This document shows, piece after piece, positions 8,869-11,918 of a stretch of 36,849 bases of DNA. The notes beneath the pieces were generated by a model. That model was not told where the DNA came from. It did no database searches and saw only the letters and a list, made by a program, of their open reading frames with translations. This stretch comes from Pelosinus sp. GTDB taxonomy: Bacteria > Bacillota > Negativicutes > DSM-13327. The stretch covers positions 1 through 36,849 of the forward strand of contig JARBUM010000035.1 of NCBI GenBank assembly GCA_029239675.1, in the 5' to 3' direction. The stretch's first letter is position 1. The number at the start of each line of letters is the position of its first letter. Both the position numbers and the translations under genes were made by a program.

Positions 8869-10923
8869 ATGTTTGATAAGAAGGAAAATTTTTTAAACAG
8901 AGAATTAAGCTGGCTGAAATTTAACCAACGGGTATTGGAAGAAGCCAATGATCCCGGAAAGCCTTTGCTAGAAAGATTAAAATTTGTTGCGATTACAAGT
9001 TCTAACTTAGACGAATTCTTCATGATTCGGGTTGCAGGGCTAAAGCAGCAAGTCGAGAGTGGTATTGCTAAGACAGATGCTGCAGGACTTAATGCAACAG
9101 AACAACTGAGGCTAATTGATGCAGATGTGCGAGAGATGGTACGACTACAGTATTATTATTTAAAGAAAATTCTTGGTGGCATACAAAATCATGCTATTTA
9201 TTTGAGTGATGTAAACAGTTTATCTGTTAGCGGCCGACAGTGGGTAGAAAACTATTTTTATAATACGATTGATCCGTTATTAACTCCTTTAGCTGTTAAT
9301 GCGAGTCATCCATTTCCTTTGTTGGCGAATCGCAGTCTAAATCTAGCGGTCTTGCTAAGTAAAGGCAAAGAAGATGTGCAGACTGCTATTCTTCCCGTGC
9401 CAAGTGTATTACCTAGAATGATAGAAGTACCTGACCAAGGTGTAGGTAAACAATTTGTATTATTAGAAGATATTATAAAAAATCACTGTGCTCATTTATT
9501 TTGCGGTTATAACATCAAAGATATTGTAGCCTTTCGAATTACGCGAAATTCAGATTTGCTAATTGATGGTGAAGGGGCCGAGGACTTGCTGGCAGAAATA
9601 AAAAAATCTTTGCGTCAGCGTAAACGGGGTGAGGCAGTTCGCTTAGAGATCAGCAAAACCAATAAGCCTTTGTTGAAAGAGTTCTTATTGGATATATTTA
9701 AGATGGATGAGCAAGACCTGTATGAAATTGCAGGGCCTATTGATGTTTCTTGTTTTATGAAAATCATTGATTTACCGGGTTATGATGATTTGCGTTATGA
9801 GTCCATTACGCCACAAATTCCTCGTGAACTAAAAGATGCAGAAGCTTTGTTCGATGTTATTCGGGAGAAAGATGTTTTGCTGCATCATCCTTATGAATCT
9901 TTTATGCCTGTAGTGAACTTTATTCGTCAGGCAGCGATTGATCCTAAGGTCTTAGCCATTAAGCAAACTTTATATAGAGTGAGCGGAAATTCTTCCATTG
10001 TCCGCGCCTTAGCGCAGGCCGCAGAAAATGGCAAACAAGTTACGGTTGTAGTAGAAGTTAGAGCGCGATTTGATGAAGAAAATAATATTTTATGGGCCAA
10101 ACGCTTAGAAGAAGCTGGTTGTCATGTTATTTATGGATTATTAGGTTTCAAGATACACGCTAAAATGGCATTGGTTATAAGACAGGAAGAAACTTGTATT
10201 AAAAGATATGTTCATATGGGAACAGGTAACTATAATGGCATTACGGCTCGGATATATTCGGATATGAGCTTATTCACTGCCGATGAGAAGATTGGTGCTG
10301 ATGCTTCTGATTTCTTTAATATGCTACTAGGCTACTCTGAACCGCTAGCTTGGAACAAATTAATAGTTGCACCTACTGGGTTAAGAGAAAGTCTGAAAGA
10401 CATGATCGACCAAGAAATTGCTTTCGCTAAGTCCGGTAAAGGCGGGCATATTATTGCTAAAATGAATTCTTTATTGGATAAAGACATTATCCTTAAACTA
10501 TATGAGGCTTCAAGTAAAGGAGTTAAAATTGAACTGATCGTTCGCGGTATTTGCGCTTTGATTCCAGGTCTTGAGCATGTGAGTCAGAATATTATGGTAA
10601 GAAGCATTGTGGGGCGGTTTTTAGAACATCATCGTATTTTATATTTTGCAAACGGTGGTAAGGAAAAAATCTATTTATCCAGCGCTGATTGGATGCACCG
10701 CAATTTAAGTGAAAGAGTGGAATTATTATTTCCCGTAGAAAATCAAGAAATCATGGTTCGTATAAAAAGCATCTTGCATCTTATGCTGAAAGATAATCGT
10801 AAAGCCTATATTATGAAAAGTGATGGAACCTATCGGCGGGTATATCGCCGAGGTAAAGTAGTAAATAGTCAGCAAAAATTATATCAAGAAGCGCAAGAAA
10901 GGTCTGGTCTGTTAGATTTTTAG
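8869..10923 (+). CDS. ppk1: Polyphosphate kinase
   Basis: A 684-aa enzyme, full length for PPK1 (about 690). It reversibly transfers the gamma-phosphate of ATP to polyphosphate. The N-terminal domain starts FLNRELSWLKFNQRVLEEA, the classic PPK1 opening. The two catalytic-core histidines are visible as H430 in KIHAK and H449 in VHMGTGNYN, 19 residues apart as are H435 and H454 of the E. coli enzyme. Two phospholipase-D-like C-terminal domains follow. The ATG at 8869 has a weak AGGGTG site. Pairing with the divergent phosphatase gives a synthesis and degradation module. Confidence 0.96.
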   Translation: MFDKKENFLNRELSWLKFNQRVLEEANDPGKPLLERLKFVAITSSNLDEFFMIRVAGLKQQVESGIAKTDAAGLNATEQLRLIDADVREMVRLQYYYLKKILGGIQNHAIYLSDVNSLSVSGRQWVENYFYNTIDPLLTPLAVNASHPFPLLANRSLNLAVLLSKGKEDVQTAILPVPSVLPRMIEVPDQGVGKQFVLLEDIIKNHCAHLFCGYNIKDIVAFRITRNSDLLIDGEGAEDLLAEIKKSLRQRKRGEAVRLEISKTNKPLLKEFLLDIFKMDEQDLYEIAGPIDVSCFMKIIDLPGYDDLRYESITPQIPRELKDAEALFDVIREKDVLLHHPYESFMPVVNFIRQAAIDPKVLAIKQTLYRVSGNSSIVRALAQAAENGKQVTVVVEVRARFDEENNILWAKRLEEAGCHVIYGLLGFKIHAKMALVIRQEETCIKRYVHMGTGNYNGITARIYSDMSLFTADEKIGADASDFFNMLLGYSEPLAWNKLIVAPTGLRESLKDMIDQEIAFAKSGKGGHIIAKMNSLLDKDIILKLYEASSKGVKIELIVRGICALIPGLEHVSQNIMVRSIVGRFLEHHRILYFANGGKEKIYLSSADWMHRNLSERVELLFPVENQEIMVRIKSILHLMLKDNRKAYIMKSDGTYRRVYRRGKVVNSQQKLYQEAQERSGLLDF

Positions 10924-10980: not shown

Positions 10981-11140
10981 CCATAGTTATCCCCATAGTT
11001 ATTAACAAAAGCATAAAAAATGTGGATAACTATGGGGACATGCTAAGGTTTTTGCTTAAAAACAAAGGATTTTTAGGACTTTATTAGGAGAAAAGGTGTG
11101 GATAAAGTGATGTGGATAAAGTTATCCACATCACTTTATC
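10981..11140. other. DnaA-box cluster
   Basis: The ppk-tRNA intergenic region contains four exact TTATCCACA boxes: 11021-11029, 11097-11105 and 11111-11119 (minus orientation) and 11122-11130 (plus). A near match, TTATCCCCA, lies at 10987-10995. A 12-mer CCATAGTTATCC (10981-10992) is nearly repeated head to tail, and its inverse lies at 11024-11035. An AT-rich stretch follows at 11138-11180. This looks like a DnaA binding region. No dnaA or dnaN gene is present in the window, so it is either a DnaA-titrating or regulatory cluster or a displaced part of an origin. Confidence 0.65.
11101..11140. repeat. 40-bp perfect palindrome carrying two DnaA boxes
   Basis: Arms GATAAAGTGATGTGGATAA (11101-11119) and their exact inverse (11122-11140) flank a 2-base centre AG. 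Each arm holds one consensus DnaA box, with a third box overlapping the left boundary. No T run follows, so it does not look like a simple terminator. Confidence 0.85.
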
Positions 11141-11170
11141 TCTGTTATAAAACAATTTCAATAAAATTTC

Positions 11171-11200
11171 TTGACTTTATAGACATAACTATGGTAAGAT
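11171..11200 (+). promoter_or_regulatory. Promoter of the tRNA-Arg/tadA cluster
   Basis: TTGACT (11171-11176), an 18-base spacer and TAAGAT (11195-11200) lie 38 bases before the first tRNA. This is a good sigma-A type match and lies directly after the DnaA boxes. Confidence 0.6.
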
Positions 11201-11237: not shown

Positions 11238-11314
11238 GACTCCGTAGCCCAGCTGGATAGAGCGCTTGACTACGAATCAAGAGGTCGCAGGTTCGAATCC
11301 TGCCGGGGTCACCA
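11238..11314 (+). tRNA. tRNA-Arg(ACG)
   Basis: The cloverleaf is complete: acceptor GACTCCG pairs with CGGGGTC, the T arm carries GTTCGAATC, and CCA is encoded. The anticodon loop CTACGAA gives anticodon ACG. A34 of this tRNA is the normal TadA substrate (deaminated to inosine to read CGU, CGC and CGA), and tadA lies 113 bases downstream. Confidence 0.96.
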
Positions 11315-11338: not shown

Positions 11339-11415
11339 GCGCCCGTAGCTCAGGCGGATAGAGCAACGGTTTCCTAAACCGTGTGCCGGTGGTTCGAGTC
11401 CTCCCGGGCGCACCA
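11339..11415 (+). tRNA. tRNA-Arg(CCT)
   Basis: Acceptor GCGCCCG pairs with CGGGCGC, with encoded CCA. The anticodon stem ACGGT / ACCGT closes loop TTCCTAA, giving anticodon CCT (reads AGG). It lies 24 bases after the first tRNA and is probably cotranscribed with it. Confidence 0.96.
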
Positions 11416-11426
11416 TTGTTATTTGT

Positions 11427-11918
11427 GTGGTGAACCGGATATTGGATGATAATTATTATATGGGACTAGCATTAGAGGAAGCGCAAAAGGCTTATGAGAT
11501 TGGTGAAGTACCAATTGGAGCCGTGCTTGTTATGGACGGCCAGGTAGTGGCTACAGGACATAATATGCGAGAAAATTGGCATGATGCTACAGCACATGCT
11601 GAAGTAATTGCTATTCGTGAAGCTTGTCAAAAGCTAGGACGATGGCGTTTAACTGGACTTACATTGTACGTTACGATAGAACCTTGCCCTATGTGTGCTG
11701 GTGCGTTAGTTATGAGCCGTATTGACCGTTTGGTTTACGGTAGTGCTGATGTTAAGGCGGGGGCAATTGAGTCAATTTTTAATATAGCACAAAATGATGC
11801 ATTGAATCATTCTATGATGGTGACGTCAGGGATAAGAGCTCATGAATGTGCACAAATAATGAAAGATTTTTTCAAACAAAGGCGAAAAAAGAGTAACAAT
11901 CATAAGATAGATGACTGA
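11427..11918 (+). CDS. tadA: tRNA-specific adenosine deaminase
   Basis: A 163-aa zinc deaminase that converts A34 of tRNA-Arg(ACG) to inosine. Active-site motifs are HAE (57-59, zinc ligand His and catalytic Glu) and PCPMC (86-90, two zinc Cys). It aligns with B. subtilis TadA from about residue 10 onward as I recall that sequence. The GTG at 11427 gives the family length but has no clear ribosome binding site, and an ATG at 11460 is the alternative. It lies 12 bases after tRNA-Arg(CCT) and is probably cotranscribed with both arginine tRNAs and the following tRNA-Ser. Confidence 0.94.
   Translation: MVNRILDDNYYMGLALEEAQKAYEIGEVPIGAVLVMDGQVVATGHNMRENWHDATAHAEVIAIREACQKLGRWRLTGLTLYVTIEPCPMCAGALVMSRIDRLVYGSADVKAGAIESIFNIAQNDALNHSMMVTSGIRAHECAQIMKDFFKQRRKKSNNHKIDD

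Follow-up and report, generated by a model that had tools for sequence, protein, structure and literature searches.

Six DnaA-box clusters outside oriC are described in Bacillus subtilis, where their loss leads to early initiation, so that the clusters limit free DnaA (PMC5295017, PMC13220808). In Streptomyces, a DnaA-box cluster near oriC is said to repress untimely initiation (PMC4585315, PMC10950094). The datA locus of Escherichia coli, as outlined in PMC5742627 and PMC10950094, lies downstream of glyVXY, needs IHF between its boxes and has essential boxes that are unidirectional, while DARS1 and DARS2 are portrayed as a tandem box pair with a 12-bp step and a further box in the opposite direction (PMC5742627).

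Here we analyse a DnaA-box array of Pelosinus sp. (Negativicutes) on a 36,849-nt contig of a draft genome (assembly GCA_029239675.1, contig JARBUM010000035.1), the whole of which is called the window. The array has several boxes clustered outside oriC in a Firmicute, as do the B. subtilis clusters, but it is a single array with a fixed geometry across families and beside tRNA-Arg. The likeness to the B. subtilis clusters concerns this clustering and their described role, and that to the Streptomyces cluster its described role. Like datA, it lies outside oriC on one chromosome arm, borders tRNA genes and has a spacer that separates its boxes. However, datA is found downstream of its tRNA genes and the array upstream, and the array boxes point both ways (Y, Z and D on the (+) strand; A, B and C on the (-) strand), in contrast to the single direction of the essential datA boxes. 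In E. coli K-12, both cores at what we take to be the places of DARS1 and DARS2 measure (+)-14-(-)-12-(-). The array agrees with them in box order and in the 12-bp step, but its first step is 22 instead of 14 and it comprises an extra phased box B and, in the Pelosinus family, palindromic boxes. We thus assigned it neither to datA nor to DARS; searches of open-licence literature returned no description of such an array. Conserved sites, spacing and position favour the regulatory non-oriC cluster that a previous sequence-only reading had considered. We predict, with a probability of about one half, a dedicated and anciently conserved non-oriC DnaA regulatory array resembling datA or the Bacillus clusters.

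Results

Four exact TTATCCACA boxes lie in the window at positions 10987-11130, between ppk and tRNA-Arg(ACG), together with two near boxes (Table 1); the exact boxes had been recognised before, as had one of the near boxes. Taken on its own, the box count of the whole window is weak evidence (6 TTATNCACA observed versus 2.1 expected, at least 6 in 3 of 100 shuffles), and it is the clustering that stands out. Assuming Poisson spread, a four-box group within 110 bp is expected about 7e-8 times in the draft genome (G000). The draft genome contains 66 TTATCCACA versus 41 for the backward pattern, and corresponding counts elsewhere are 80/29 (G003, P. fermentans JBW45), 70/54 (G006), 57/29 (G025) and 33/14 (G035). 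On the JBW45 chromosome, the orthologous array (5108857-5108980) comprises five of the 80 exact boxes and is the densest exact-box group, with 75 further exact boxes elsewhere. JBW45 TTATCCACA sites show a strand bias: most of those on the right arm are (-) and most of those on the left arm (+), possibly owing to GTG-GAT-AAx codons on the leading strand.

Table 1. Features of the array and its surroundings in the window; 8/8 refers to the readable genomes of the Pelosinus family.
Feature	Position	Strand	Remarks
ppk (polyphosphate kinase 1), upstream neighbour	8869-10923	+	Pfam and NCBIfam matches over cut-off
Near box Y, TTATCCCCA	10987-10995	+	34 bp 5' of A in 8/8
Near box Z, TTATTAACA	10999-11007	+	22 bp 5' of A in 8/8
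DnaA box A, exact TTATCCACA	11021-11029	-	same in 8/8
A-B spacer, 67 nt	11030-11096		67, 66 or 65 nt within family
DnaA box B, exact TTATCCACA	11097-11105	-	same in 8/8; A-B 76, 75 or 74
Inverted repeat, 19-nt arms, centre AG	11101-11140		arms 11101-11119 and 11122-11140 fully complementary
DnaA box C, exact TTATCCACA	11111-11119	-	B-C step 14 bp in 8/8
DnaA box D, exact TTATCCACA	11122-11130	+	C-D step 11 bp in 8/8
Decayed box E, TTATCTCTG	11136-11144	+	exact TTATCCACA in G001-G004
Promoter-like site of tRNA unit, TTGACT-18-TAAGAT	11171-11200	+	conserved in family alignment
tRNA-Arg(ACG)	11238-11314	+	
tRNA-Arg(CCT)	11339-11415	+	
tadA	11427-11918	+	NCBIfam TadA over cut-off

Some further box sites were noted. 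An inverted pair, TTATCCACA-N3-TGTGGATAA, is located in the dnaB-purA gap of JBW45 (L210 7735-7755, that is G003 5328551-5328571) and recurs beside dnaB in the genome of the window (L010 1489-1509, that is G000 C27:49764-49784); it is a possible DnaA site beside the replicative helicase gene. Three TTATNCACA, all (-), lie within 42 bp upstream of a transporter-like gene in JBW45 (5293395-5293436, L208), and a box pair with the same 33-bp step is present in G006 at 4641883.

We recovered the locus from nine of the ten genomes of the Pelosinus family (f1). Because an N gap interrupts the G004 palindrome and no locus was obtained from G007, eight of the ten were readable. Boxes A to D are identical in all readable genomes (36/36 columns invariant) and the steps from B to C and from C to D are fixed, while the A-B spacer has diverged (10 of 67 columns invariant). 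The A-B step measures 75 in G009, 74 in G008 and 76 in the other six genomes; the Y slot reads TTATCCCCA, TTATCCACA or TTATCAACA, and E has decayed in the window, G005 and G006. Six of the ten invariant spacer columns fall in the middle of the spacer (window 11062-11075, AAGG..TTTTA-like), a possible site for a bending protein. The AT-rich flank of the array varies in both sequence and length.

A single copy of the C-D core is present in each of eight of the ten family genomes, and one of the 370 other genomes of the class likewise has it. A scan of genome contigs yielded at least 118 stretches with this core; among the 80 loci listed, one (Anaerovibrio, L094) fits a looser triple and has steps of 12/11, and of 16 picked from these 80 for their many boxes, ten carry a dnaA match, so this type of pair is also present in origin regions. 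Within the class, the looser triple was detected in 11 of 380 genomes, namely eight of the family, G112, G286 and G287, and in the last two it is positioned directly upstream of dnaA.

An older core extends beyond the family. Two complete genomes from other families have box clusters directly upstream of tRNA-Arg, and 11 of the 21 tRNA-Arg loci compared have three or more TTATNCACA within the preceding 450 bp (the other ten include further tRNA-Arg copies and contig ends). The Y(+)-12-Z(+)-22-A(-) module was found in 59 of the 380 Negativicutes genomes and in 34 of the 102 genera, versus none for the backward control. It occupies 67 distinct places (one overlapping G025 row was left out), 41 of which are anchored by ppk upstream or by a tRNA-Arg that follows within 700 bp. 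Of the 26 with neither, four represent the same locus, judged by a contig-end tRNA match or a small gene (L316, L335, L336, L337), three (L300, L303, L305) are flanked by a PLP decarboxylase gene and a DegS gene, and 19 have no explained context (18 in family f11, and L318 in f13). These three loci (in G039, G025 and G021) comprise a Y-Z-A-B module with an A-B step of 53 or 54; the search for the PLP decarboxylase and DegS-like histidine kinase families covered L300. Box A was TGTGGATAA in 24 of 24 genus representatives, with the fifth base left free in the search pattern. The geometry of the Y-Z-A core is retained across many Negativicutes families.

Distances between the array and dnaA come from relatives, as dnaA was not found in the draft assembly of the window. 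In JBW45, with a genome of 5,380,816 bp (PMC4582584), dnaA starts at base 630 and the array is 272 kb away. GC skew in 10-kb bins stays negative from 5.08 Mb up to the chromosome end and is positive throughout the first 100 kb. Another 20 samples from the rest of the chromosome fit this picture and place the opposite turn between 2.4 and 2.6 Mb. Thus, the turn of the skew coincides with dnaA rather than with the array. No copy of the Y-Z-A module (at most one mismatch per box) was found at the 18 dnaA loci scanned, of which L358 and L363 include hardly any upstream sequence, and upstream of dnaA the same box sequence appears in a different arrangement. In JBW45 the array is therefore not the origin, and the part in a split origin that the sequence-only reading had suggested is not supported.

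Twelve genomes have the array on the same contig as dnaA. In 11 of them it was found 104-408 kb upstream of dnaA (G002 237, G003 272, G005 362, G006 293, G013 408, G025 303, G301 298, G304 346, G306 347, G310 104 and G311 167 kb), its downstream side pointing away from dnaA. The exception, G035, has it 306 kb away on the other side, pointing toward dnaA and with another box layout. Position does not count as independent evidence, since the order of genes on the array side may have been inherited, and kept gene order may explain part of the rule.

In the class, ppk is usually followed by a small unnamed gene, the array and tRNA-Arg, sometimes with tadA and tRNA-Ser. The product of the small gene, a protein of about 95 aa (alignment A1, e.g. 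L348:1633-1932), gave nothing over the Pfam and NCBIfam cut-offs for the four of 15 alignment members searched. By profile, its gene was detected in 313 of 380 class genomes and in none of the ten Pelosinus-family genomes; by a C-terminal motif that misses some members, at 30 of 75 loci. Of 40 further small-gene loci, 28 belong to f11 and have no boxes within 300 bp after the gene, whereas 11 of the other 12 have them. Since the small gene and the boxes are each found without the other, array and neighbours separate in evolution, and the small gene looks like a neighbour of the array rather than its partner. A partnership with tadA was likewise rejected: no box precedes tadA at 22 loci outside the Pelosinus family (L264-L285), although in G049 and G314 the array lies about 500 bp before tadA, preceding tRNA-Arg(CCT) and tadA.

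A rival reading is that DnaA acts as a transcription factor for the downstream tRNA-Arg/tadA unit and couples tRNA supply to replication state. The promoter that had been postulated before this unit is present as a promoter-like site, 31 bp past the repeat; two such sites were found before tRNA-Arg versus 1.4 expected in shuffles. Wherever the anchor test detected tRNA-Arg, it was on the same side and the same strand; the test counted one strand, and a tRNA listing of both strands within 1.5 kb revealed no opposite tRNA-Arg. In addition, a second type of module precedes the DegS gene in three genomes. However, the distance to the tRNA, 95 to 186 nt past the E slot in the family, shifts by 35-91 nt without helical phase. 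Moreover, 8 of 10 loci of family f30 retain the array with no tRNA-Arg found within about 2 kb downstream (of the other two, one has tRNA-Arg and one ends at 291 nt). The link to the tRNA unit is thereby weakened, its same-strand association with tRNA-Arg standing, and we consider transcriptional control of this unit unlikely.

The spacing between A and the next box on the same strand points to the regulatory array. Taking B as the next same-strand box 40-85 bp from A, with one value per genus, the distances in 28 genera were 52-56, 63-67 or 74-79 bp. These groups centre near 54, 65 and 76 bp, one helical turn apart, as would follow from a need for proteins bound at A and B to face the same side of the helix. 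In a first set, 19 of the 23 anchored genera gave a Rayleigh R of 0.71 at 10.5 bp; the other four (g34, g43, g88, g13) have no B at 40-85 bp and were outside the test. Nine further genera, with values picked by hand, gave R 0.67 (p 0.02), and all 28 gave R 0.69 at 10.5 bp (p 1e-6), p-values that are too small because genera share ancestry. When each of 21 families contributed a single value, none of 20000 uniform draws matched. Where values differed, one representative was entered (77 for f14, which also has 75; 54 for f15, which also has 52); f10, which has a different layout, was left out, and the genus of G105, with 73, was entered as 74.

Such regularity also bears on pure titration, the first of the functions suggested by the sequence-only reading, in which the array would be a sink of boxes whose geometry has no role. 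The many boxes within a short stretch suit a sink, but a sink needs neither fixed steps nor helical phasing, and the other exact boxes of JBW45 are numerous; we regard titration alone as improbable. Another rival is a DARS-like array that would reactivate DnaA through ADP release. Read in reverse, A(+)-22-Z(-)-12-Y(-) follows the order of the DARS core, so that reactivation has to be taken seriously. Yet besides the deviating first step the C-D pair faces the other way, with TTAT ends and a 2-bp gap, and we regard this function as improbable.

Part of the array in the window is embedded in what had been called a 40-bp perfect palindrome. The 19-nt arms are indeed perfect, but 38 of the 40 bases mirror, the 2-nt centre being the exception. 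The nested repeat described earlier resolves into box B, a 5-nt linker, box C, 2 nt and the inverted box D. The 5-nt linkers B-C and D-E mirror each other in all six readable Pelosinus genomes, their sequence varying among species (AGTGA, AAGGA, AGTAA). Mirroring is absent from both readable g2 genomes of the same family, which retain the boxes, and in the family genome G009 the flank of D complements that of B instead. In the genomes compared, the palindrome is confined to Pelosinus; it is a late local addition rather than an old part of the array. Mirrored linkers of differing sequence are the pattern that template switching between inverted boxes would leave, a process treated in PMC7202029 and PMC8794818, and the palindrome probably arose in this way; the linkers may have a role of their own. 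That a hairpin or cruciform (a terminator or RNA element) is the feature kept and the boxes are incidental is very improbable: the linkers do remain mirrored while changing and the repeat folds strongly (-17.7 kcal/mol, z -8.9), but no terminator-like site was called at the repeat, a T run is missing, the g2 genomes keep the boxes unmirrored, and the module occurs across Negativicutes without the palindrome.

Discussion

For a dedicated regulatory array speaks that neighbours change while the array persists. Against it stand the module places without explained context, the f11 small-gene loci that lack boxes, the deviating side and layout in G035, and the four of 23 anchored genera without a phased B. 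Another reader of DnaA boxes may also act at the array.

The motif GGRDHTTV, which we take to be that of DnaA domain IV, is present at 14 of 14 DnaA loci looked at. From the observed sites, their conservation, spacing, phasing and position we infer that DnaA would bind the array, that A and B would come into contact, and that initiation timing would be affected. DnaA on the convergent Y/Z-A group would contact DnaA on box B across about 54, 65 or 76 bp, a contact that would demand helical phasing and thus a loop or an ordered assembly. Located about 0.1-0.4 Mb from dnaA, the array would be duplicated soon after initiation, and its two copies would then hold DnaA or alter its nucleotide state, by which the next round would be delayed. 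In the Pelosinus family, boxes C and D (and E in some genomes) would add a denser inverted cluster. More tentatively, the array could be a DnaA control element of the Negativicutes that has its own geometry, formed by the convergent Y/Z-A group and the helically phased fourth box B, lies early on one arm next to tRNA-Arg and switches DnaA between active and inactive states, i.e. a Firmicute counterpart of datA and DARS.

According to a 2026 review, B. subtilis is without datA and DARS, and whether it possesses regulators of DnaA nucleotide state is an open question (PMC13220808). The array described here may help to set when these bacteria copy their chromosome. It would represent a second lineage with a DnaA array beside tRNA genes, as is the case for datA, and as a short element with invariant boxes, helical-turn spacing and a fixed place it offers a direct target for work on initiation timing in Firmicutes.
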